DNA of 64,000 nt, taken from Bacteroides sp. Lineage in GTDB: Bacteria > Bacteroidota > Bacteroidia > Bacteroidales > Bacteroidaceae. The notes under the pieces were generated by a model, which was not told the origin of the DNA, ran no database searches, and saw nothing but the letters and a program-made list of their open reading frames with translations. Position 1 is the first letter of the stretch, and each line of letters starts with the position of its first letter. The translations under genes and the position numbers were made by a program. Below are positions 17,219 through 30,630 of this stretch, one piece after another. The stretch is from positions 1-64,000 of the forward strand of contig JALCME010000015.1 of assembly GCA_022648295.1 (NCBI GenBank). The letters are read 5' to 3'.

Positions 17219-19309
17219 CTATTTTTCTTTTACACAACGGATAGGAAGTGCATTGGCTGTGCCAAAAGAATTCACAAAAGAGTATGAACCACTACTGGAC
17301 ATTTCAGCCCTATAAGCCTGCTCATTAGTGTTCCCTGTATAGGGTGAACATGTCCATAAACGTATATAGCTAGGAGATGTAGCCATACTATTAGACCATG
17401 AACCAGTATAGCTTCTATAAGCTGTAGGCAGGAATCTAAAAACATTGGGATTAACCCCTCTCCCATACATATAAGAATTAGAGGACCATGTCCAATCAGC
17501 TGATGAGAATCCCTGATAGGCTTCTATCGGAGGTACTCTCCATCCCTCCGGACAAGGATCGTAAAGCGTTTTGGAGGTTTCGCTCCAATATTGCCGGGTA
17601 TATTCATTCTCCGAACCGGAAAGCCAGTGATTAGATAAGTTATTAGTACGAACAAAGGTCGTCGGGTTACGTATCGAATATTCCAGATCAAAAGTTGATG
17701 TAGCGTTATTTACTAAAGTTTCTGCCAGTGGACTATAAGGAGGAGTATGAGTAGTCGTACTAGAAGCGCTAGATGGTGGATTAAACGGATCTTTACGTCC
17801 CCACTGGTAAACCAGACCATTGGTATAAGTACCCGGACTCGTACTCGGGAAAGATGTTTGCCCGATATTCGCCCCCATCCAGGTATATCCATTGTAATCA
17901 AAAATATAATTCTGTAGATTGGGAGCTACCCAAACCAGCCAGCTCCACAGAATATTCCCCTCGGCATCCTGAATTCCCACACAAGCATTGTAATTACCAT
18001 TAAGTTTAAGCCCGAACTTTCCATAGGCCCGCAGCGCAGGGGTGTCAATTAAAATAGAATTGGCTAAAGTAGTCCATGCCCATAGCACCACGGGAGTCCA
18101 GGCCGTGGAGGAGGTGACATCGGGAATCTGGATACCCAGTTCGCTGCGGTTGGCCTGCTGCACATTGATATATGCCGTGTCCGCATTCGAGTAAAGCACA
18201 TAGGTATTGGCCACATGTTCATAAGTCCTTGTCACCCTCGAATCGGATATGGAAAGCCCGGTTAGGTTCGAGGTGAGGGTGTAGTAATGGTTGCGGCGGA
18301 TGTTGTAATCGTTGTAATTGTCTCCGCCCGGATAAATGCGGTAGCTGTAGCGGTAACCGGCGTTGGACATATCGTGATTCAATCCCTGCAACTCAATGTA
18401 GGTGGCATAGTCCACCCCTCCCTTGTATTTGGGCTGCGTGGTGGCGTTATCACCCGTCCCTCTGAGGTTCTCCGGCACATAAAAGGTCAGGGTTCCCCCA
18501 TCATTGCCCGCCGGTTCATACGCTGTGTCGAACACGCTCGAGGTGTCCGGCTGCGCCGGATAAACGCCCTGCGGGGGATAGTACTGGCAACTGTCCCGCA
18601 CATTGCACAGGCGGATCCGGTCCACGGCAAACTGCTGCTTAAGCGTACTACTCAGCGTATAGGTGAAGTCAATGCGCGCCAGCAGGCGGGTCATCTCAAT
18701 GGTCTGGCTGTCCAGGTAGCCGGTGACGGGAACCGTTATCCCGGTGAGCTGTGCAAACATGGGGATGCATTTGATGTTCGCATCCGTGAGAAAAAACATT
18801 CCTTCCTCCGAGGTCGCCGAGGTGGCGGTGGTGAAGAAGGTGGCTTCATCCTGTGGCGGAGAGGCGAAAAGCGTGGAAGAAACATTGGCCACGAAATAAA
18901 GGTTGCTCAGCCCGGGTGCAAGTTCCACCTCAAAATCCACCGTGCTCAGATCGCCGATGAAATACTTGGTCACAAAGCTTCCCCCCTGGTATTGTAACAG
19001 CCAGATGTTCTGAATCAGGTTTTCATCAATGTCCGCCGGCGTGGTGGAACGGGTCTTCGTTTGCCCCTGCATGGGGGCCACCCCGAGCGAAAAGCGTGCC
19101 CGGACCAGGTCGTCCCGTTTTCCCGGAGTGTTTTTCACCGAATACTCGTCCGTGCAGGAGAACAGGGCCGTCAGCACTAGAAGCGCTAAAAGCATGAACT
19201 CTTTCCTTTTCATGATACTTCTGTTTTTATTGTTAGTTTTCTTTTCCATATCTTTTTCTTTCCAATCCTTTTTCGTTTCTCTTTCCTCTTTTTTTTCTTT
19301 ATCCCTCAT
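17219..19309 (-). CDS. Fimbrial protein, DUF4906-like N-terminal region plus FISUMP-like C-terminal domain
   Basis: KTRSTTPADIDENLIQNIWLLQYQGG...; C-terminus GLVYQWGRKDPFNP...YDPCPEGWRVPP...IRCVKEK. The true start is probably at the internal MKRKEFMLLALLVLTALFSC. Confidence 0.8.
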   Translation of the reverse strand: MRDKEKKEERETKKDWKEKDMEKKTNNKNRSIMKRKEFMLLALLVLTALFSCTDEYSVKNTPGKRDDLVRARFSLGVAPMQGQTKTRSTTPADIDENLIQNIWLLQYQGGSFVTKYFIGDLSTVDFEVELAPGLSNLYFVANVSSTLFASPPQDEATFFTTATSATSEEGMFFLTDANIKCIPMFAQLTGITVPVTGYLDSQTIEMTRLLARIDFTYTLSSTLKQQFAVDRIRLCNVRDSCQYYPPQGVYPAQPDTSSVFDTAYEPAGNDGGTLTFYVPENLRGTGDNATTQPKYKGGVDYATYIELQGLNHDMSNAGYRYSYRIYPGGDNYNDYNIRRNHYYTLTSNLTGLSISDSRVTRTYEHVANTYVLYSNADTAYINVQQANRSELGIQIPDVTSSTAWTPVVLWAWTTLANSILIDTPALRAYGKFGLKLNGNYNACVGIQDAEGNILWSWLVWVAPNLQNYIFDYNGYTWMGANIGQTSFPSTSPGTYTNGLVYQWGRKDPFNPPSSASSTTTHTPPYSPLAETLVNNATSTFDLEYSIRNPTTFVRTNNLSNHWLSGSENEYTRQYWSETSKTLYDPCPEGWRVPPIEAYQGFSSADWTWSSNSYMYGRGVNPNVFRFLPTAYRSYTGSWSNSMATSPSYIRLWTCSPYTGNTNEQAYRAEMSSSGSYSFVNSFGTANALPIRCVKEK

Positions 19310-19310
19310 T

Positions 19311-20411
19311 TCAGGGCTCCGGTGGCAGGATGCTCAGCCGTGCATCACTCTGATACAGCCCCCTCAGGTTGTAATCCAGCGAATAGCTGTTGTTGCGCAC
19401 CAGGTTATAATCGTTATAATCGTTCCCTCCGGGATAAATACGGAACACCGCCCGGTATCCCGCATATTCCCCCCCGGTAACCGTACCGGAGAGTTCCACG
19501 CAGGTGGCATAGTCCACCCCGGTTTTTCCCTTGGGCTGGAGGGTGGTGTTCCCTCCCTGTCCGCGCCGGTTCTCCGGCAGGTAGAAGAGCAGGGAACCTC
19601 CCCCGTTATCCGCGGCCTCCGGGGAGGTGGAAAACACCTCCCCCGGGGAGAGCTCCGCCGGATAGTTTCCCGAAGCGGGAGGAATGTAGGCCATCCAGAC
19701 GGGGATGTTGAGCAGGCGTATGCTCTGCAGGGTGTAGATCGAAGCCAGGGAGGCATCCACGGAATAGTTCAGTTTAAGACGGACCACGCTCCGCATAAGG
19801 GTGAGGGTATCTTCCAGGGTCTCCCCAGAGGTCTTGATTTCGAACCCGGACAGCTCCCCCCACATGGGAAGGTAGTGCACCCCCTGGGCGGAGGTGTAAA
19901 GCAGGCTCCCTTCATCCGGGACCTCCATCCGGGAGGAAAGAAAGGAGGTTTCCCCCTCATCAAAGCCCGAGAGGGACTCCTCACCCACATTCGCCACGAA
20001 ATAGAGGTTGCTCACCCCCGGATACAGGGGGACGTAAAAGCCGGTGGTATCGGGTGATTCCAAAAATTCTTTACGTTTAAACGTCCCGTCCTGGAATTGC
20101 AGCAACCACAGGGAAGCGATCCCGTTCTCGTTCACCGTTCCGGGGGAGGTGCTCCGCGTGGAAGCCCCGTTTTCCGGGGCCGGTGATCGCAGCGTAAAAC
20201 GGACCTTGATCAAAGGATCGGCCACGGGGGTGGGTTCATCCCCGGAAGGTGTACAGGAGAGCAGAAGCAGCAGGCATCCCAACAGAACGCTTAACCGTGT
20301 GCCGGATGGTTTTCCCTTTCCGGCTCTCTTTTCCTTCTCTTCCCGCAGTCCTTTATTTTTTTTCATCTGTCTATTCATCTCTCTGTTATTGTCCCATTGT
20401 CGTACTTCCAT
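19311..20411 (-). CDS. Short-form fimbrial protein (DUF4906-like region only)
   Basis: GASTRSTSPGTVNENGIASLWLLQFQDG...; ends ...LRGLYQSDARLSILPPEP*. Confidence 0.75.
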   Translation of the reverse strand: MEVRQWDNNREMNRQMKKNKGLREEKEKRAGKGKPSGTRLSVLLGCLLLLLSCTPSGDEPTPVADPLIKVRFTLRSPAPENGASTRSTSPGTVNENGIASLWLLQFQDGTFKRKEFLESPDTTGFYVPLYPGVSNLYFVANVGEESLSGFDEGETSFLSSRMEVPDEGSLLYTSAQGVHYLPMWGELSGFEIKTSGETLEDTLTLMRSVVRLKLNYSVDASLASIYTLQSIRLLNIPVWMAYIPPASGNYPAELSPGEVFSTSPEAADNGGGSLLFYLPENRRGQGGNTTLQPKGKTGVDYATCVELSGTVTGGEYAGYRAVFRIYPGGNDYNDYNLVRNNSYSLDYNLRGLYQSDARLSILPPEP

Positions 20412-21585
20412 TGTTCACGGGCACCCAGTCTCCGTCCGCCGGATCCAGAGGGGAGGATACGCCCATATTTCCCTGCGGGTTGGCATTCATGCTCCAGGGA
20501 TAGGCTTCGAGCAGGAGCTTATTGGGAACGCCGACCTCGTCGGAGAAAGTTGCGCTGGCATCCCAGCTTTCGGGGACGATCTCCACCACCTGGGGCTGTC
20601 CCAGTTCATGATCGGTGGCTTTCAGGTCCCACTGGCCCACGCTGATCACTCCCCATGCCCCCCCTGCATCCACCGTGGAGGAATTCTCGTTCCACGGAAC
20701 GATACGGAGCAACAGGTTGACTTTGGAGTCGGTGAAGCTAATGGTAAAAAGGTATCTCACCCCGGGCACAAAAGCCATCGGGGGGATGACGGCCGTAGCC
20801 GTACTGGATATATCGTTAATCAGAATATGCATGGTTAAGGTGAAGCCCGAGGCTTCTTCACGGGGTAAGACCACCGTATGTGCGGTGTGGGTCTGGCCCC
20901 CTTCATCTGTAAAACCGGAACCGCTGATCTGTGCGCTTCCGTCATTGGCTCCGCTCCCGGAGGTAAACCCGCTTCCCAGGACGTAGTCGCGCGGGGAATG
21001 TGGCAGTCCTTGCAGGGTCAGTCCCTGGCTGCCGGGGGATAAGGAAGTCACCACCTGGTTGGATGGATCGATTTGAAGGGTGAATTGTAAATCGGAACAC
21101 TGGTGTTCCAAAGCCGGGAAAGTCACCGTTGTCGTGATCCCCGAGACATAAGTTGAACCGGAATAATTGAAAATGAAATCCGCACCCTGGTCAATGGTGA
21201 CCGTACGGATCCCATTCCCTATTGAGAGTGAAGGTGAAAATGCATAAAAGGCGTAAGACCGCCTGTTTCTTAACAGCATGGGGTTACCGTCCCCAGCCGA
21301 AAGGCCCCCCTGTTCATCCGTCACGGTATAAGACTTGAGCTGCGTATAAGCGGTCTGCTCCTCCGCTCCCTCCACGCCGTAGGCCGCCACACTCAGGCTC
21401 TTCCCCTGGGGAAGATAGCCCGTGCTCCGGGTTCCGGAGGGCGGATTCGATGCGGTGAGTGAAGAGAAGTAGACGGAAGAAACCTCCTCCATATCCGGGG
21501 AAGGGGAACCGTCCTCCTGACTGCAGGAAGCAGCCAGAAGGAGGAGGCATCCCGCTCCAAGGAATCTGTTTATGATCTTTTGCAT
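20386..21585 (-). CDS. Fimbrillin family (Mfa-like) protein
   Basis: Lipoprotein signal (LLLLAASCSQEDG), GTRSTGYLPQGKSLSVAAYG, C-terminal MLRNRRSYAFYAFSPS / SFTDSKVNLLLRIVPW. Overlaps the next gene's start by 26 bp. Confidence 0.75.
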   Translation of the reverse strand: MQKIINRFLGAGCLLLLAASCSQEDGSPSPDMEEVSSVYFSSLTASNPPSGTRSTGYLPQGKSLSVAAYGVEGAEEQTAYTQLKSYTVTDEQGGLSAGDGNPMLLRNRRSYAFYAFSPSLSIGNGIRTVTIDQGADFIFNYSGSTYVSGITTTVTFPALEHQCSDLQFTLQIDPSNQVVTSLSPGSQGLTLQGLPHSPRDYVLGSGFTSGSGANDGSAQISGSGFTDEGGQTHTAHTVVLPREEASGFTLTMHILINDISSTATAVIPPMAFVPGVRYLFTISFTDSKVNLLLRIVPWNENSSTVDAGGAWGVISVGQWDLKATDHELGQPQVVEIVPESWDASATFSDEVGVPNKLLLEAYPWSMNANPQGNMGVSSPLDPADGDWVPVNNGSTTMGQ

Positions 21586-22704: not shown

Positions 22705-23757
22705 TCAATCGGGAAGAGGCTCGAAGCCGGTAATTACCTCGTGGTCTTCCCAATCGGTTACGGTTACGTTATTGATCGTTAACTCCGCTCCCTGCGCAAT
22801 GATGATACTGAACTTATAGTTCGTACCGGCGGTGAGCGAGGTGAAATTTGCAAACGGATTCACTCCCGGAGTGATCCGGCTTTCATAGCGGACCCCGTCT
22901 ATGGTGAAGGAGACCGTAATGGGACTATCCAGCGGAGTGACGGGGATGAGCAGAAAACTCCGGCTGACGCCTTCGGCCGTGGCGGTGAGCGCCAGATCGG
23001 AGGCCGTAAACCCGCGTTCCGTCTCCGGGTAATGGTAAAGCACCGGGGCGGGCACCACCGTCAGGTTGGCGGATGGATACACCTGCTCCCCTTCAAATCC
23101 GATGGAGCTGACCACACCATCCCCAGGATAAGAGGGATCTTTGAGCAGGGAAAAAGTGATCTGGGAGTAGGCCCGGGAGAGATCGGCGAAATCCACTCCG
23201 GGGGAGTCTTTGTCCACTCCCTCCACAATGCCGGAATAGCACAGGTCAGCTGATTGCGTATACTCCCCCGCCTGAAGCGGCAGAGCGGAAAGATCCGTGA
23301 ACGCCGCATCGTAGGGCGAGAGTGCGCAAACCTGTGCCTGGGCATCCGTGAGGTAGATGGGCGTTTCCCCAGCCCGGTAGTCCCATTGCCCGTTCACCGC
23401 ATCGTACTCGAAAGCCACCGGGCCCTGGAAGTCGTATCCTCCCGCGGCAAGGCGATACACCCCGAGCGTGGCGCCGTTCTGTGTCAGCGGTGTGCTCGTA
23501 CGGGTCAGGACCATGGAGAGCGAAACCGAATGCACACCCAGGGCGACTTCGGAGGGAGCCGGAGCCGGAGCGGGAAGCTCCAGACGGGTGAACTCCGTAC
23601 AGGAGCACAGCAGGGAGACGGCCAGCAGGAAGAATCCCCTGTTCCCCCTCATCAGGGATATTCCCCGTCGTTTGCCAATGCTTTTAGGACTACTTTCGTT
23701 CATGCTTTTGTTTCTATTTTCGTTCATATTTTCTTTTGATGCTTTCGTTAATTTCAT
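22705..23757 (-). CDS. Fimbrillin family protein
   Basis: VLTRTSTPLTQNGATLGVYRLAAGG; FTSLTAGTNYKFSIIIAQGAELTINNVTVTDWEDH, paralogous to the 21645-22649 product. Confidence 0.82.
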   Translation of the reverse strand: MKLTKASKENMNENRNKSMNESSPKSIGKRRGISLMRGNRGFFLLAVSLLCSCTEFTRLELPAPAPAPSEVALGVHSVSLSMVLTRTSTPLTQNGATLGVYRLAAGGYDFQGPVAFEYDAVNGQWDYRAGETPIYLTDAQAQVCALSPYDAAFTDLSALPLQAGEYTQSADLCYSGIVEGVDKDSPGVDFADLSRAYSQITFSLLKDPSYPGDGVVSSIGFEGEQVYPSANLTVVPAPVLYHYPETERGFTASDLALTATAEGVSRSFLLIPVTPLDSPITVSFTIDGVRYESRITPGVNPFANFTSLTAGTNYKFSIIIAQGAELTINNVTVTDWEDHEVITGFEPLPD

Positions 23758-23758
23758 A

Positions 23759-24727
23759 CTACCGGATCACCGCCGTTCCGCTATCCACCTGTTCCCAGTC
23801 GGTCAGGCCGCCCGTCAGGCCCAGGGGAGTATCCTCCCCGCCCACTTTGACCGTATACCGATAGGATACTCCGGGTGAAAACACCCGGGAAAGACTGCCC
23901 GTATATTCCCCGTTTCCGGTGATGATCTTCACCTCCAGCTCCATGACCGAAGAAGAGGGGAAAAAACAGGTGGCCGGAATACGAAGGACGGGAAGCCCCT
24001 GATCCACTGCCATTGTAGAAGATAGCGTATCGGAAGCCGTAGCGGGCAGCGTGAGCAGACCCGTCTGCACATCCAGACGGCCCTCCTTGTAAAAGCCGGA
24101 CACCTGTAGCGTGGAAGCGGTAAAGTCAAACGGGAGCCCCGGGGCAACCTCCACCTCGAAACTGAGCTGGCTCACACAATGGCGGAAAGAGAGCGTGCCC
24201 GTGCGGTTCGTCTCGGAGACTTCCACGATCGCCGATTTTGAGGCACAAAGCACATCCGTACCACCCGGGAATACAATGGATGCGGGATCGGAAGCCTCCT
24301 GGCTGTAAGGAGCGTAAGCATACAGGGCGTAGCTGTAACCGATGCTCAGATCCACCGGAGTGGAGGAAGACAACGCTCCTTCCGCCAGGGAGACATAAGA
24401 GAGATTGGTGTAATAAGCCGTAGCGGGAGGATTTTCCGGGGAGGTGACATAAACACCCACCGAAGTACCTTCGGGAAGGGATTCTTCCGAAGCCCGCGTG
24501 TCCAGTGACCAGGAACTTCCGCGAAGTTGCAGCCGGACCGTGGGGGGGGGGGCTGCGATGTCCTCTCCGGTTCCGCTATTCCCCGAACAGCTGCAAAGCA
24601 GGCACAAGCCCAGGAATACCGTTCCTAAGAACGGAAACAGGAACGGGAGTGCGGATACCACCGGACCCTTCCCACGGGAAGGAATCCCGGATGCTCTTTT
24701 TCGCGCTATTTTTGTTTTTATTCTCAT
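23759..24727 (-). CDS. Fimbrillin family protein containing a homopolymeric C tract
   Basis: Lipoprotein signal (LCLLCSCSGNSG), LDTRASEESLPEGTSVGVYVTSP, SPGVSYRYTVKVGGE...LTDWEQ. Confidence 0.78.
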   Translation of the reverse strand: MRIKTKIARKRASGIPSRGKGPVVSALPFLFPFLGTVFLGLCLLCSCSGNSGTGEDIAAPPPTVRLQLRGSSWSLDTRASEESLPEGTSVGVYVTSPENPPATAYYTNLSYVSLAEGALSSSTPVDLSIGYSYALYAYAPYSQEASDPASIVFPGGTDVLCASKSAIVEVSETNRTGTLSFRHCVSQLSFEVEVAPGLPFDFTASTLQVSGFYKEGRLDVQTGLLTLPATASDTLSSTMAVDQGLPVLRIPATCFFPSSSVMELEVKIITGNGEYTGSLSRVFSPGVSYRYTVKVGGEDTPLGLTGGLTDWEQVDSGTAVIR

Positions 24728-24808: not shown

Positions 24809-25687
24809 TTATTTCACCTCAACACTCCCCTGCTCATAGCTCCAGTCGGTCAGCGTAGCCGTGAAGATCCCGCCCGTGGTTCCTTCCACCTCAATGGTGG
24901 CATCTACTACCACCGGGATCACCGTTACGTTCACCGTAGCCATTGCATCCGTGATATCCACTTGCAATTCCTGATGACCTCCCGAATGGAAACCCAAAGA
25001 AATCCCCAGGATATTACCCGCCTGTTCGGATTTACCCAGGAAGGTGATGACTGAAACCAGTCCGTCCGAACGGATCTCCGGGCTGAAGAAGATCACGCCG
25101 TCTTCCTGCTGAAGCTCTCCCGTGGAGAGATTCACCGAACGGGAGATGCCGCTCAGGGTGCAATCACAGGAACCCACCGCAGTGGACTCGCCCCTCAGGT
25201 GGATATTCACTTCGCATCGACGGATAAAATTATCGGGAGTCAGTTCAGCCGTCCCACCCGAAGGGGTCACCGTAAAACTTCCCAAACCGATACCGTAGGC
25301 ATGGCTTGGTTGGGACAGGTAATCCGCACGGCTGACCGGACTGGCATGCATCGAAGCCAATTCGTAACTGTCCAGGTTGCTGTAGGAAACCCCCACCGCA
25401 TCCGTGTTATAGGCCAACACCCGGTATTCACCCGGGGGAAGGGACCCCGTAAAGGATTCATTCCCTTTACCCGTTTCCCGGATCAGGCTGCCGTCGGAAC
25501 CGTAAAAAAGAAGAGCCATCTCTGCGGGGATGCTATCACCCGTCCCCAGACTATCCCAGTTAAAACGGATGGAAACGGAAGCCGATGAAGGACGTGCGGA
25601 GAGTTCCTGGCGCGTACAACTTCCCAACAAGGGAAGAAAGATGCTTCCCCATAACAGCAGGCCATATGTTCGTTTGCGGATATTCAT
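24809..25687 (-). CDS. FimB/Mfa2-type (DUF5119-like) fimbrial anchor/accessory lipoprotein
   Basis: LLGSCTRQELSARPSSASVSIRFNWDSLGTGDSIPAEMALLFYGSDG...LPPGEYRVLAYNTDAVGVSYSNLDSY. Confidence 0.65.
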   Translation of the reverse strand: MNIRKRTYGLLLWGSIFLPLLGSCTRQELSARPSSASVSIRFNWDSLGTGDSIPAEMALLFYGSDGSLIRETGKGNESFTGSLPPGEYRVLAYNTDAVGVSYSNLDSYELASMHASPVSRADYLSQPSHAYGIGLGSFTVTPSGGTAELTPDNFIRRCEVNIHLRGESTAVGSCDCTLSGISRSVNLSTGELQQEDGVIFFSPEIRSDGLVSVITFLGKSEQAGNILGISLGFHSGGHQELQVDITDAMATVNVTVIPVVVDATIEVEGTTGGIFTATLTDWSYEQGSVEVK

Positions 25688-27139
25688 TTATTTTCTTAGC
25701 TGTTTAGTTGTTCCAAAACGGTATGTGAGCAACAAACGGATTCCGGTCAGGCGGAAGCCGCCCTTACGATACGAGGAATCGTAATAGTACGAAGGACGGT
25801 CGTAGTAGTAACGGTCCCCGCAAACCTGGCGGTAACCATACTGCATGCCAACCTCCATGCCGAGCCTGCCGGAAAGAGGAAGGTAATACCCCAGGGAAAG
25901 CCCGCTCTCCATGTATTTGCCCGTTTTGCCGTATTCACTCGACGAGGGCTTCAGGTTATACTCCCCGAACAGGCTGTAAACGCCCCCGTAAAAACCGGTG
26001 TAAGAACCGGACGGGTCCGGCCAGAAACGGGATTCCACCGACACGAAAGAGGGGGCCCAGATCCGTTCGCCCTTATGGCTGGAATACGCCCAGCCCAGAT
26101 TCAGGGACCAACGCGGAAGGGCGTACCACTCCAACTCCAGATTAGGAGTCGGGAACTCCCATTCGAAACCCGGGGTCAGCCCCGCCCAGTAAAACAGGTT
26201 TGTTTTCAACGCCACCATCAACCGCCGCTTAGCAGAAGAAGGCGGAGAGTCCATGCCGGGAACGGACAGCGAATCGTCGCAAAGAGGTTCCCCTGCGCTA
26301 ACTAAAGGTTCCATGGAAGGAATAGTCGTTTTGACCCGGATACAGGAGTCGGGAGAACCGGAATACGGCAACCCGCCCGAGGAAACATAAACCGTATCCG
26401 AAGAGGATGGTAACTCTTCCGTAACAAAAGCGGAGGTATTTTTGGAAGACGGCCGGAACACAGGCAGGCTCCACTTACCCCCGCAAAGCGGGAAGGGAAC
26501 GTAACGGGATACGGCAAATTCCACCATACCCGCATCCGCCGTGGATAACGTATAGCTGATCAACCGGTTGGAATCAGGGGAAACGGCGGAGGGAATATAA
26601 CTCACTTCAATGGTATTGCGCCTCCCCCCGACCGTATCAAAACAGAAGATGAAAATGTTATCGGAAAAATGATGCCGGAGCTTGATATAAGCACGCACCA
26701 TACTCGCCTGGCGAGAAGCTTCATTGATCCGGTAATAGTCGGATAAATCCCCGCTCCTGAGGAAGGCTTTGATCAACAGATGCGAATGCTCCCCGAAGAG
26801 TGCCGTGCGATGGGACTCCAGCAAGAGATTCATCGCCTGCAGGGACGAAGAGTTCCCCTTATGATCCTTCAAAAAGTAGGGATACCCCTCTATAAAACGG
26901 AAAAGGAAGAAAGCCTGGCTGTCCGGTGCCGGGGTCGCAACGGGATTTCCCCCCGGCGGGCAAGATACCGGTTGTTCAAGGACCGCCGGAGTAACCGGAG
27001 GAAAGAAATGCTCATACAGCTTATGGGCAAAAAGCAGGGCTATAGCCAGGAGTACAATAAGGCTTGCCAATAAAAACAGCAAGGTCAGCTCCCGCCTTCT
27101 CTCCTTTCCGGTTGTTCGATGTTCCTTATCCAAGTTCAT
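25688..27139 (-). CDS. DUF3575-like outer membrane protein, first gene of the fimbrial operon
   Basis: N-terminal TM; C-terminal VALKTNLFYWAGLTPGFEWEFPTPNLELEWYALPRWSLNLGWAYSSHKGERIW...GMEVGMQYGYRQVCGDRYYYDRPSYYY...RLLLTYRFG. Confidence 0.7.
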   Translation of the reverse strand: MNLDKEHRTTGKERRRELTLLFLLASLIVLLAIALLFAHKLYEHFFPPVTPAVLEQPVSCPPGGNPVATPAPDSQAFFLFRFIEGYPYFLKDHKGNSSSLQAMNLLLESHRTALFGEHSHLLIKAFLRSGDLSDYYRINEASRQASMVRAYIKLRHHFSDNIFIFCFDTVGGRRNTIEVSYIPSAVSPDSNRLISYTLSTADAGMVEFAVSRYVPFPLCGGKWSLPVFRPSSKNTSAFVTEELPSSSDTVYVSSGGLPYSGSPDSCIRVKTTIPSMEPLVSAGEPLCDDSLSVPGMDSPPSSAKRRLMVALKTNLFYWAGLTPGFEWEFPTPNLELEWYALPRWSLNLGWAYSSHKGERIWAPSFVSVESRFWPDPSGSYTGFYGGVYSLFGEYNLKPSSSEYGKTGKYMESGLSLGYYLPLSGRLGMEVGMQYGYRQVCGDRYYYDRPSYYYDSSYRKGGFRLTGIRLLLTYRFGTTKQLRK

Positions 27140-27217
27140 TTCCCTATTTTGATGGTTTAAGCATATTTTTCAACGTGTATGGGCCGGGTGGAAGAACCTC
27201 TCCGAACCCCATTTACA

Positions 27218-27247
27218 CTTTCCGTTACTTCACAGGTAACGGAAAGG
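27218..27247. repeat. Left inverted repeat of an invertible promoter segment (tyrosine recombinase site)
   Basis: ctttccgttac-ttcacag-gtaacggaaag-g: dyad arms around a 7-bp spacer; reverse complement of the 27631-27658 copy. Confidence 0.9.
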
Positions 27248-27587
27248 AAAGATTTACGAAATAAAAGACACACAGGTGGGCAATTGCATCCTTTACTTAA
27301 ATAGTTAAGTATTTTTTATGGATATTCCGGAGAATACAACGGGGAAAGGGGAGATGTATCCGACAGGGACAAATAAGATCGGGATTTTTTCAGATGTACT
27401 ATAATAAGTTAAAGATCACAAAAAGGGAAAAACGCGGGGAAAGGATTTTGTCTATAATTAGAAAACATAGGAATACTTATATAAATATACACGTATATAT
27501 ATACTATGGAAAGAGGGTCCCAAAAGAAGAACAATCCAAAAGAATAGGCCTGTCATTGGTAAAATAAATAAGATTTTTTAGTTTTTA

Positions 27588-27618
27588 TTTGGTGTTTCGG
27601 AAAAAGTATATATCTTTG
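27588..27618 (+). promoter_or_regulatory. Promoter inside the invertible segment, currently pointing away from the fimbrial operon
   Basis: TTTG (27588-27591), 19-bp spacer, TATCTTTG (27611-27618), an exact match to the Bacteroides consensus. Confidence 0.8.
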
Positions 27619-27630
27619 CATCCGGAATCT

Positions 27631-27658
27631 CCTTTCCGTTACCTGTGAAGTAACGGAA
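27631..27658. repeat. Right inverted repeat of the invertible promoter segment
   Basis: cctttccgttac-ctgtgaa-gtaacggaa, 28-bp perfect inverted match to 27220-27247. Confidence 0.9.
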
Positions 27659-27709
27659 CAAGGGGATTTTTTCTTAAAGCCCCTTTGCCATCAGGGCTTA
27701 TTCCATTCT

Positions 27710-28708
27710 TCAAATCTTCAGAGCTAGCGTTTTTTCCTTTCGTCTAACAGCTAAAGGGTCATAAGGATTCAGAATCAGCCGGATAACCTTACGATTGGCC
27801 AGCTTGAGTCTACCGGTATTAAAACAGGACAGATAGGCATAAGTCATCTTCTCCGAGGCATGCCCCAGAGATTCGCTGATCAGGGAGACCGGAATGCCCT
27901 GGTGATAAGCCGCCGTGGCCCACGAGTGACGGGCGACATAAGAAGTCAGACGCACCTTCAGTCCTAAAAGAGCGGAAAGCTTCTGCAGGTGGAGATTATA
28001 CAGGCGAAGCGCACTCTGATACTGACGATAACCCGCAACACCCTTCTTGCTCACGAAGGAAAGCAGGTAAGGGGAATCATTCTTCAAAGAGGCGTATTTT
28101 TGAAGAATGGCCAATGCGCAAGGTTCCAGCGGAACACTCAGGAAACGGCCCGTCTTACTGCGGCGGTAACGAAGCGTTTTTCCGACAATGTCACTGCGGC
28201 GGATATGGATCAGGTCTACAAAGGGAATGCCACGCAGGTAGAAAGAAAGTAGAAACAGATCACGGGGAAGAGCCAGGGGGGAATCCTCAGGAAGCGAAAG
28301 CTCCCTCAGGCGACGGATCACCGAAGGGGAAACCGCCCGTTTGGCTGCCGGAGCGCTACCGGTAAATACCGATTTGAACAATCCCGGGGGAATATCCGGA
28401 ATACCGCTTGCCGAAGCGCGGTTGCATAACGCACGAAGCATGCGCATATAAAGGGATACCGTGTTGCGGCGGCAATTCTGACCATACAGGTACTGCTCGA
28501 AATCCTTGAGCATTAGCGGGGTTAACTCCGAAAAACGCAGGTCATCCCTACCTGAAAAACGGAGCAGGCGTCTTAACGAACACGAATAGGAGTGGGCCGC
28601 ACCATGATGCCCGCTCCCAATCAAATCCCCGATCAGGGAATCCGTAAAGGTCTTTAATGAAGTCAATGCATTTGCTTGTTTGTCGCTTCTTTCCTTAAAC
28701 CATCTCAT
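27710..28708 (-). CDS. Tyrosine recombinase / site-specific integrase, candidate invertase
   Basis: Core-binding N-terminus; catalytic motifs LRGIPFVDLIHIRRSDI, VARHSWATAAYHQGIPVSLISESLGHASEKMTYAYL. Confidence 0.92.
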   Translation of the reverse strand: MRWFKERSDKQANALTSLKTFTDSLIGDLIGSGHHGAAHSYSCSLRRLLRFSGRDDLRFSELTPLMLKDFEQYLYGQNCRRNTVSLYMRMLRALCNRASASGIPDIPPGLFKSVFTGSAPAAKRAVSPSVIRRLRELSLPEDSPLALPRDLFLLSFYLRGIPFVDLIHIRRSDIVGKTLRYRRSKTGRFLSVPLEPCALAILQKYASLKNDSPYLLSFVSKKGVAGYRQYQSALRLYNLHLQKLSALLGLKVRLTSYVARHSWATAAYHQGIPVSLISESLGHASEKMTYAYLSCFNTGRLKLANRKVIRLILNPYDPLAVRRKEKTLALKI

Positions 28709-29235
28709 TTACAATCTTTTTTTGTTTTTCGACCGCAATATTAATGAACTACGCTTGCGGTAAAAAACGAACGGTAAATGCCGGAAGAAAGAAAAAAACT
28801 GAGTTAATAATAATCTTTATTGACGTATTTGTAAATAACTATGCATTACAGATACTGTGATCAAAAGTAATATAATAAAAATAAGGAAAAACTCTTCTAA
28901 AGAATGAAACAAAAAACAAATCAGGTAAGAATTTTACCCGGTTAGTAAGTATAAACAGACCTGTTTGGATAGGTTTTATCAATTAAAACGAAATGTATTG
29001 AAACAATATTGAAGTAATTACAGATTAGAACCTATTTAAATTATGTCATTATAATAGCAAGCGAATACATATATAAATATAGACAAATCAAAAAAAGGGA
29101 ATATCCTATCTAACGAAAAGCCCCGCTTGACATTCCAGCTTAACAGGTTTGCCACAAAATAGAAATAGTAATCGCCTTTCTTTGCCCCCGACAATAAACA
29201 ACAGTACTAACTTAGAATTAAAAACCTCCGTAAAA

Positions 29236-30630
29236 ATGAAAAGACGCATTTATTATCAGCTCTTAGCTGTATGCTTTCTAACCGTTTTCTCTCTTACAGG
29301 ATGTGAACAGAATGAAGAAATCGAAGCAAAGTCCGGTGATTATTCCAAACCAAGTCTTACAACAGGAATCTTGAACATGAATTCCACGGCAGATTCCCTT
29401 GCTACACCGCTAGCGAATAAATTTGTAGAAGAGTGGACTTCGGATAACAAAGACACCACTACCGTTACAGGTACAACAAAAGTGATCAGAACCTGTGTGC
29501 TATATGCTAAAGAGAGCTTAAACAGTTTAACACGGAGTTCCGTGGATGATATTAAGAGTGAAATTTCGCTGATGATTAAACAAGACTCCACACTTTCTCC
29601 AACGTACAGGGACTTGCTGGATTCTTATGCTGGTGGGATCTTTGATTACATTTACAGGTATGAGGGTAAAACCGTTGACGCAGAGTTTTACACCGGATTG
29701 GGAGACTTAAAAGAAACTCTGTACACTAAAATTATAATGGAATATAATGAAAAGGAAAGTATTAGTTATTCCGAATATTCCGATTTATGCTTGTATGTGG
29801 GATATATGTGTGATGTTTCCAGACAAATGTTAGAAATGAAGGATAACACGACTTCCACCACCAGAGGTTTCCTCAGCCTTTTTAATCCTGTAACATGGTT
29901 CAAAGGAGCAATAAAAGCCGGCACTTCGCTATTTAAGGGAGATCCCGTTCCGATCTTTCTGCAACTGGGCTCGTCCAGCGGAAAAGGATTCTTTTATTCC
30001 ACGCTCATTTATGTAATGGACGAAACATTTGATTATGACAACCCATATTATTCCAGCCGGACAAAATCCATGTTTTCAGGGTCTATCATCGGCTCTGCAC
30101 TTAAACTAGGCAGGTGGTATGATGCATTACAATCAGGAAATGTAATCAAAATGACTAAAAGCGTTTATAACGTATTGAAATGCGCTGTACCCGCTGATAA
30201 AGATGAAAACAAGGAGAGTAGCGAGTATATACATTCCTCATTCGGCTTTAAAAACGTGGCTTACCGCGGACAGGGCATTGCATCTTCCAATAAGAAAAAT
30301 GTATTATGGCTTACACCTAACGGAGATGTTGTACTGGAAAAGTTGGATAGTAAATTAAAGGTGGAAGAAACCATCTATTGGTATAGGAACATCAGCTTTA
30401 CACTCTCCGGCAAAACATATGGCAGCCCGGCAACCAAGATTCATTTTTATAAGGGGAATTATAAGAATGAGGGCTATAAGGAAGGCTTGTTAATGCAATA
30501 TCTTGATTATACCGGTAATAAAAAGAATATGTTTCTGCTCACAAGCGAACAGGTGGGAGGTTTCTTCAATACTCTTTATATTAATGATAAAGGGGAAGTC
30601 AGACCAATCAATGTTTCTACTAAGATATAA
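29236..30630 (+). CDS. Hypothetical lipoprotein
   Basis: Start at MKRRIYYQLLAVCFLTVFSLTGCEQNEE (lipobox); no family recognised. Confidence 0.7.
   Translation: MKRRIYYQLLAVCFLTVFSLTGCEQNEEIEAKSGDYSKPSLTTGILNMNSTADSLATPLANKFVEEWTSDNKDTTTVTGTTKVIRTCVLYAKESLNSLTRSSVDDIKSEISLMIKQDSTLSPTYRDLLDSYAGGIFDYIYRYEGKTVDAEFYTGLGDLKETLYTKIIMEYNEKESISYSEYSDLCLYVGYMCDVSRQMLEMKDNTTSTTRGFLSLFNPVTWFKGAIKAGTSLFKGDPVPIFLQLGSSSGKGFFYSTLIYVMDETFDYDNPYYSSRTKSMFSGSIIGSALKLGRWYDALQSGNVIKMTKSVYNVLKCAVPADKDENKESSEYIHSSFGFKNVAYRGQGIASSNKKNVLWLTPNGDVVLEKLDSKLKVEETIYWYRNISFTLSGKTYGSPATKIHFYKGNYKNEGYKEGLLMQYLDYTGNKKNMFLLTSEQVGGFFNTLYINDKGEVRPINVSTKI

Follow-up and report, generated by a model that had tools for sequence, protein, structure and literature searches.

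A putative fimbrial phase switch, captured OFF, in a Bacteroides genome

The DNA considered here is a stretch of 64,000 nucleotides from a gut Bacteroides genome (referred to below as the window, and lying on the contig that we call C15). It contains a fimbrial operon, a tyrosine recombinase gene and, between them, a short segment bounded by inverted repeats. The question raised by this locus is whether the segment is an invertible promoter that turns the operon on and off, and if so, which enzyme turns it over and why it was captured pointing away from the operon. From the sequence evidence described below, we consider it highly probable that the locus is a fimbrial phase switch with its own local recombinase, captured in the OFF state.

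The candidate invertible segment

The left repeat (27220-27248, + strand) and the right repeat (27630-27658, - strand) are perfect inverted copies of each other over 29 bp, and no other inverted repeat in the 64-kb window comes near them in strength when arms within 2 kb of each other are compared. Simple arithmetic gives about 2e-10 such pairs expected by chance, and a chance origin was rejected on this basis. The initial annotation gave the repeats as 28 bp long and the interval between them as about 383 bp; they are indeed perfect, but the lengths are corrected here to 29 bp and 381 bp. It was right in describing each copy as a dyad with arms of 11 or 9 bp around a 7-bp spacer, as direct reading of both copies confirms. 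The left dyad (27218-27246) reads CTTTCCGTTAC-TTCACAG-GTAACGGAAAG, with 11-bp arms and the spacer at 27229-27235, and the right dyad (27634-27658) reads TTCCGTTAC-CTGTGAA-GTAACGGAA, with 9-bp arms and the spacer at 27643-27649. Both repeats have a GTTAC-N7-GTAAC dyad core, and their asymmetric spacers lie in opposed orientation, which is what inversion requires. The candidate invertible segment is therefore the repeat-bounded 381 bp at 27249-27629, to which no strand is assigned; related segments are seen both ways round elsewhere.

The segment carries an exact match to the Bacteroides-type promoter, TTTG-N19-TATCTTTG, at 27588-27618 on the + strand (TTTG at 27588-27591, TATCTTTG at 27611-27618), with its end 11 bp short of the right repeat. 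In 2000 Markov-1 simulations of the segment, no equally good match arose on a single strand, which bears out the promoter proposed earlier. The best leftward match lies in the middle of the segment and has one mismatch, a score reached in about 5% of simulations. Dyad-core inverted repeats of 29 bp thus flank a segment with a TTTG-N19-TATCTTTG promoter, which is the organisation of an inverton, and we infer that the promoter is active. Because it faces the 3' end of the recombinase gene and away from the eight-gene operon, the locus is called OFF, as it was initially. Flipping the segment would bring the end of the -7 element to 27260. The earlier prediction that the flipped promoter would lie upstream of the operon is thus upheld, but its distance from the start codon at 27139 is about 120 bp rather than about 100 bp. 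The interval 27140-27219, inspected by eye, contains no good leftward promoter.

The right repeat also forms part of a predicted intrinsic terminator on the + strand (27626-27672, AATCTCC...GGGGATTTTTTC), in which AATCTCC/GGGGATT lengthens the dyad of the right site and a T run comes directly after it. The predicted energy is -19.7 kcal/mol for this hairpin next to its T run and -22.1 kcal/mol (z -3.3) for the region 27618-27680, the start of the OFF transcript being assumed to lie near 27626. Since inversion carries AATCTCC along, the complete stem is present in the OFF orientation only; in the ON-state transcript the dyad folds, but with no T run after it. The terminator is thus predicted to keep transcription from the OFF-state promoter out of the recombinase gene. 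The 27626-27672 element was missed by a scan for consensus terminators, presumably on account of a bulge in the stem. A terminator on the recombinase side was rejected as a feature of the family: among 78 loci, at a cut-off of -10 kcal/mol or below, one was found on the recombinase side in five and on the operon side in eight.

The recombinase and the fimbrial operon

The gene at 27710-28708 (- strand), proposed from the start as a tyrosine recombinase lying alongside the segment, is confirmed as such by its Phage_int_SAM_5 and Phage_integrase domains. It encodes 332 residues and is the presumed cognate invertase, which probably acts on the two repeats and inverts 27249-27629. The reading frame is intact and so are the presumed catalytic residues, which were located by aligning the protein with a XerC-like recombinase of solved structure: K185, R260, H283 and the presumed nucleophile Y292 do not vary among the eight paralogues of the genome from which the window comes (the home genome). 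Catalytic arginine I is replaced by Pro162. In two of the paralogues (C3 and C5) the residue there is Cys, and the nearby Arg159 is also missing. With Pro or Cys at this position, the canonical first arginine seems to be absent from this large recombinase family. The CTnDOT integrase is likewise reported to lack the first catalytic arginine.

An inverton of the Mpi type was rejected, since such switches are served by a serine recombinase and the enzyme next to this segment is of the tyrosine class. Past the recombinase, at 29215-30630 on the + strand, there is a putative lipoprotein of 471 residues with no Pfam match.

On the other side of the segment, eight minus-strand genes run from 27139 down to 17219 with intergenic gaps of at most 81 bp and intact reading frames. 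They constitute a type V pilus (fimbria) operon, in that they include genes for fimbrillin-family lipoproteins with Mfa_like_1 and Mfa_like_2 Pfam matches above cut-off. A lipobox-like cysteine occurs in seven of the eight proteins, in keeping with type V pilins. The first gene (25688-27139) encodes 483 residues with an N-terminal hydrophobic stretch and a C-terminal DUF3575 domain; a relative at the locus L161, discussed below, is 40% identical over the C-terminal domain. It is followed by a DUF5119 lipoprotein (24809-25687, lipobox LGSC), which is a putative fimbrial component, two Mfa_like_1 fimbrillin lipoproteins (23759-24727, E 2.1e-22, with a lipobox; and 22705-23757, E 3e-16), a pilin-like lipoprotein with no Pfam match that resembles pilins of the loci L075 and L161 (21645-22649), and a Mfa_like_2 fimbrillin lipoprotein (20386-21585, E 6.4e-22). 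The last two genes encode proteins with DUF4906 Pfam domains, the first (19311-20411) a possible tip pilin and the second (17219-19309), which has a long C-terminal region, a possible tip adhesin. A PDB search with the single sequence of one pilin gave no match. On this gene content, fimbriae would be the product of the ON state.

Related switches and the evidence for inversion

The home genome contains seven further modules in which a recombinase paralogue is followed by an inverted-repeat pair and then an operon, on contigs C13, C8, C16, C1, C3, C5 and C21. The recombinase paralogues are 36-62% identical, and both the position and the direction of the promoter are the same: in all eight it faces the recombinase, so that all eight are OFF. 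In six of the seven sister modules the operon has DUF3575 or Mfa_like genes near the segment, the fimbrial call for C8 and C16 being based on close similarity to C13 and on DUF4906 similarity; the C21 module heads a polysaccharide (exopolysaccharide) operon. The GTTAC-N7-GTAAC core of the window repeats recurs at other recombinase-linked sites of the home genome. The spacer is TTCACAG in C15, C13 and C8, TTTACAG in C16 and C1, and TTTGCAG in C3 and C5, and the site core of C21 differs from those of the other modules. An identical 17-bp core, GTTACTTCACAGGTAAC, occurs at C15 27220-27658, C13 8080-8591 (L033) and C8 7659-8169 (L034). Cross-inversion or crossover between these three loci is therefore possible if one recombinase binds them all.

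Evidence that switches of this family turn over comes from sister genomes. The loci L170 and L172 have collinear flanks that are 95.9% and 92.8% identical, while the 466-bp segment between them is 87% identical but reversed, with breakpoints at the repeats. The same combination of collinear flanks and reversed segment is seen for L179 versus L180 and for L181/L184 versus L185. Between sister genomes, orthologous segments thus differ in orientation, with the repeats as the end points of the flip, and the family does invert. The switch of L170/L172, which is ON in genome G052 and OFF in G145, precedes a gene for 124 residues with no Pfam match, rather than fimbrial or polysaccharide genes. A DNA search with the window segment against 160 genomes of the genus gave short matches, mostly to the promoter region, and no flipped copy. 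A counterpart in gene order is L161, in another species (genome G148), which is syntenic and has a 60%-identical recombinase, a 33-bp repeat and DUF3575-DUF5119-Mfa genes.

A switch of this kind has a well-known parallel in E. coli, in which the invertible promoter fimS and the tyrosine recombinases FimB and FimE turn type 1 fimbriae on and off. The window switch would work in the same way, but fimS differs in serving unrelated fimbriae, of the chaperone-usher rather than the type V kind, and in its promoter class, its two recombinases and its sites.

Within Bacteroides, one of the closest described systems is BF2766/Tsr19 of B. fragilis, a recombinase whose deletion abolishes inversion of the adjacent promoter and which has two target promoters, a local one and a distant one (PMC4747536). 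The window recombinase belongs to the same subfamily, and its locus resembles the local target, IVp-I, in that the segment is directly 3' of the recombinase, the promoter is near the recombinase-side repeat, the operon lies beyond and OFF predominates (PMC4747536). The target of IVp-I is extracellular polysaccharide (EPS; PMC4747536), whereas that of the window locus is fimbriae; the repeat core is of the CTTAC/GTAA type at BF2766/Tsr19 and GTTAC/GTAAC here; and Tsr19 has in addition its distant promoter target and a gene that is head-to-head with that of a serine resolvase (Mpi). The window locus does not fit the BF2766/Tsr19 type: the gene upstream of its recombinase (29149-30630, +) lacks a resolvase domain, and its target is a fimbrial operon. 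In B. fragilis Q1F2, a relative of the window recombinase (L086/L177), 51% identical, does have a resolvase gene head-to-head with it and a sugar-transferase (polysaccharide) operon downstream, and on its sequence fits the published BF2766/Tsr19 description. Together with the seven paralogous modules and the flipped orthologues, this Tsr19-like relative supports the invertible-promoter mechanism put forward in the initial annotation.

The capsule switches of B. xylanisolvens have the repeat GTTACTTCTTAGGTAACGGA, an invertible segment of about 290 bp and an adjacent tyrosine-type invertase (PMC12118408). They share with the window locus the site architecture GTTAC-N7-GTAACGGA, but their spacer is TTCTTAG and their targets are capsule operons, compared with TTCACAG and fimbriae here (PMC12118408). 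Tsr loci of B. fragilis govern fimbria-like surface proteins according to Weinacht et al. (2004), as they are cited in PMC12632263. As in the window, Bacteroides tyrosine recombinases there flip promoters of fimbria-related surface proteins (PMC12632263). In hCom2, fimbrillin family genes are enriched beside invertons, and adjacent tyrosine invertases are oriented such that the inverton promoter cannot drive them (PMC11892184); these inverton groups come from a survey of defined-community strains. Given these prior reports of fimbrillin-linked invertons, GTTAC...GTAAC repeats and fimbria-like loci, the kind of switch is already known.

Orientation across the genus and the choice between explanations

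Two sets of loci were surveyed in the genus: 80 loci from about 50 genomes, picked by recombinase homology, and a further 40, picked by site pattern alone, from genomes that are complete or nearly so (20 scanned). In all but a few of these roughly 120 loci the segment is directly 3' of the recombinase, and in nearly all of them the genes beyond it read the same way as the recombinase. The recombinase adjoins the segment in all 40 loci picked by site pattern, so that a comparison of linked with unlinked switches is impossible.

Orientation was called from the promoter motif, and the assembly gives the majority state only. The first set together with the eight home loci gave 67 OFF, 3 ON and 8 ambiguous under a relaxed rule, and 57 OFF, 2 ON and 22 ambiguous under a strict one; the second set, counted by eye from the table, gave 37 OFF and 3 ON (L240, L251 and L263). 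The combined ratio is 104 OFF to 6 ON in 110 callable loci, or about 95% OFF (binomial p ~3e-24 against 1:1, a figure to be read in the light of the fact that loci from the same genome and near-duplicates such as L157-L160 are not independent). OFF is the usual captured state across this family of recombinase-linked switches. At all OFF loci of the survey, promoter and recombinase gene are convergent, the promoter facing the gene's 3' end.

It is worth adding that L263 (genome G003), L240 (G041) and L251 (G008) are each the one ON switch in a genome with several, the other sampled switches being OFF; this is consistent with one locus being expressed at a time, on an incomplete sampling of switches. 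The loci L157, L158, L159 and L160 are four near-identical recombinase-inverton modules, all in genome G148, which suggests recent duplication or gene conversion of entire switches.

We hypothesise that the recombinase encoded at 27710-28708 turns 27249-27629 over by breaking and rejoining the DNA within the two GTTAC-TTCACAG-GTAAC sites. In the present orientation the promoter would fire toward the recombinase, with a transcript that probably ends at the right-site terminator, and the eight-gene type V pilus operon would be silent; in the flipped orientation the promoter would drive fimbria synthesis. A clonal population would then be a mix of fimbriate and non-fimbriate cells, mostly non-fimbriate.

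The segment might instead be flipped in trans, wholly or partly, by one or more of the C13 and C8 paralogues, which would make the three loci a small fimbrial-switch regulon. The identical GTTACTTCACAGGTAAC core at their sites is what such a regulon would have, and BF2766/Tsr19 provides a precedent in serving both a local and a distant promoter in B. fragilis (PMC4747536). We nevertheless regard this as possible but improbable: identity between the C15 recombinase and those of C13 and C8 is only about 61%, the site flanks differ, and the adjacency of recombinase and segment in nearly all surveyed loci, including all those picked by site pattern, fits local action. Far less probable still is that the segment is a locked relic that no longer flips, with an operon that is permanently silent or served by another promoter. 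The promoter does face away from the operon in the sole genome available for this locus, and every switch in the home genome is OFF; but repeats that are perfect over 29 bp, a recombinase with its frame and presumed catalytic residues intact and undamaged operon frames are hard to reconcile with decay, the OFF state is the norm in relatives known from both orientations, and the 27140-27219 interval offers no good leftward promoter in its place.

The remaining explanation concerns the reason for the OFF state. Given the fixed convergent arrangement, the recombinase could be subject to feedback in cis: the OFF-state promoter could have a job of its own, namely antisense repression of the recombinase, which would stabilise OFF. 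The orientation control of FimE is an analogue in outcome. Both the convergence seen in every OFF locus and the OFF calls in 104 of 110 callable loci are in line with this, as is the loss of the local OFF excess in B. fragilis when BF2766 is plasmid-borne, for which the authors suggest suppressed expression or other control (PMC4747536). At the window locus, however, the strong predicted terminator at the repeat, ahead of the recombinase gene, would block antisense transcription, and selection in culture against costly surface structures could equally give the bias. We therefore think such a role rather unlikely. A broader version, in which the geometry of the family biases its switches to OFF through orientation-dependent expression of the recombinase, while single loci tune or disable the feedback (as the window terminator may do), seems to us equally doubtful. 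If it were true, the 104:6 OFF excess seen in the genus would be the mark that it has left.

On the preferred reading, of a local switch captured OFF, one more Bacteroides genome has a clear fimbrial phase switch, and its mechanism is testable. With eight modules in one genome, seven of them on fimbrial operons, adhesion in this organism may diversify largely by on/off switching. The OFF excess and the convergent layout turn the remark made for B. fragilis into a general question for the family: is the bias produced by cis feedback or by selection?
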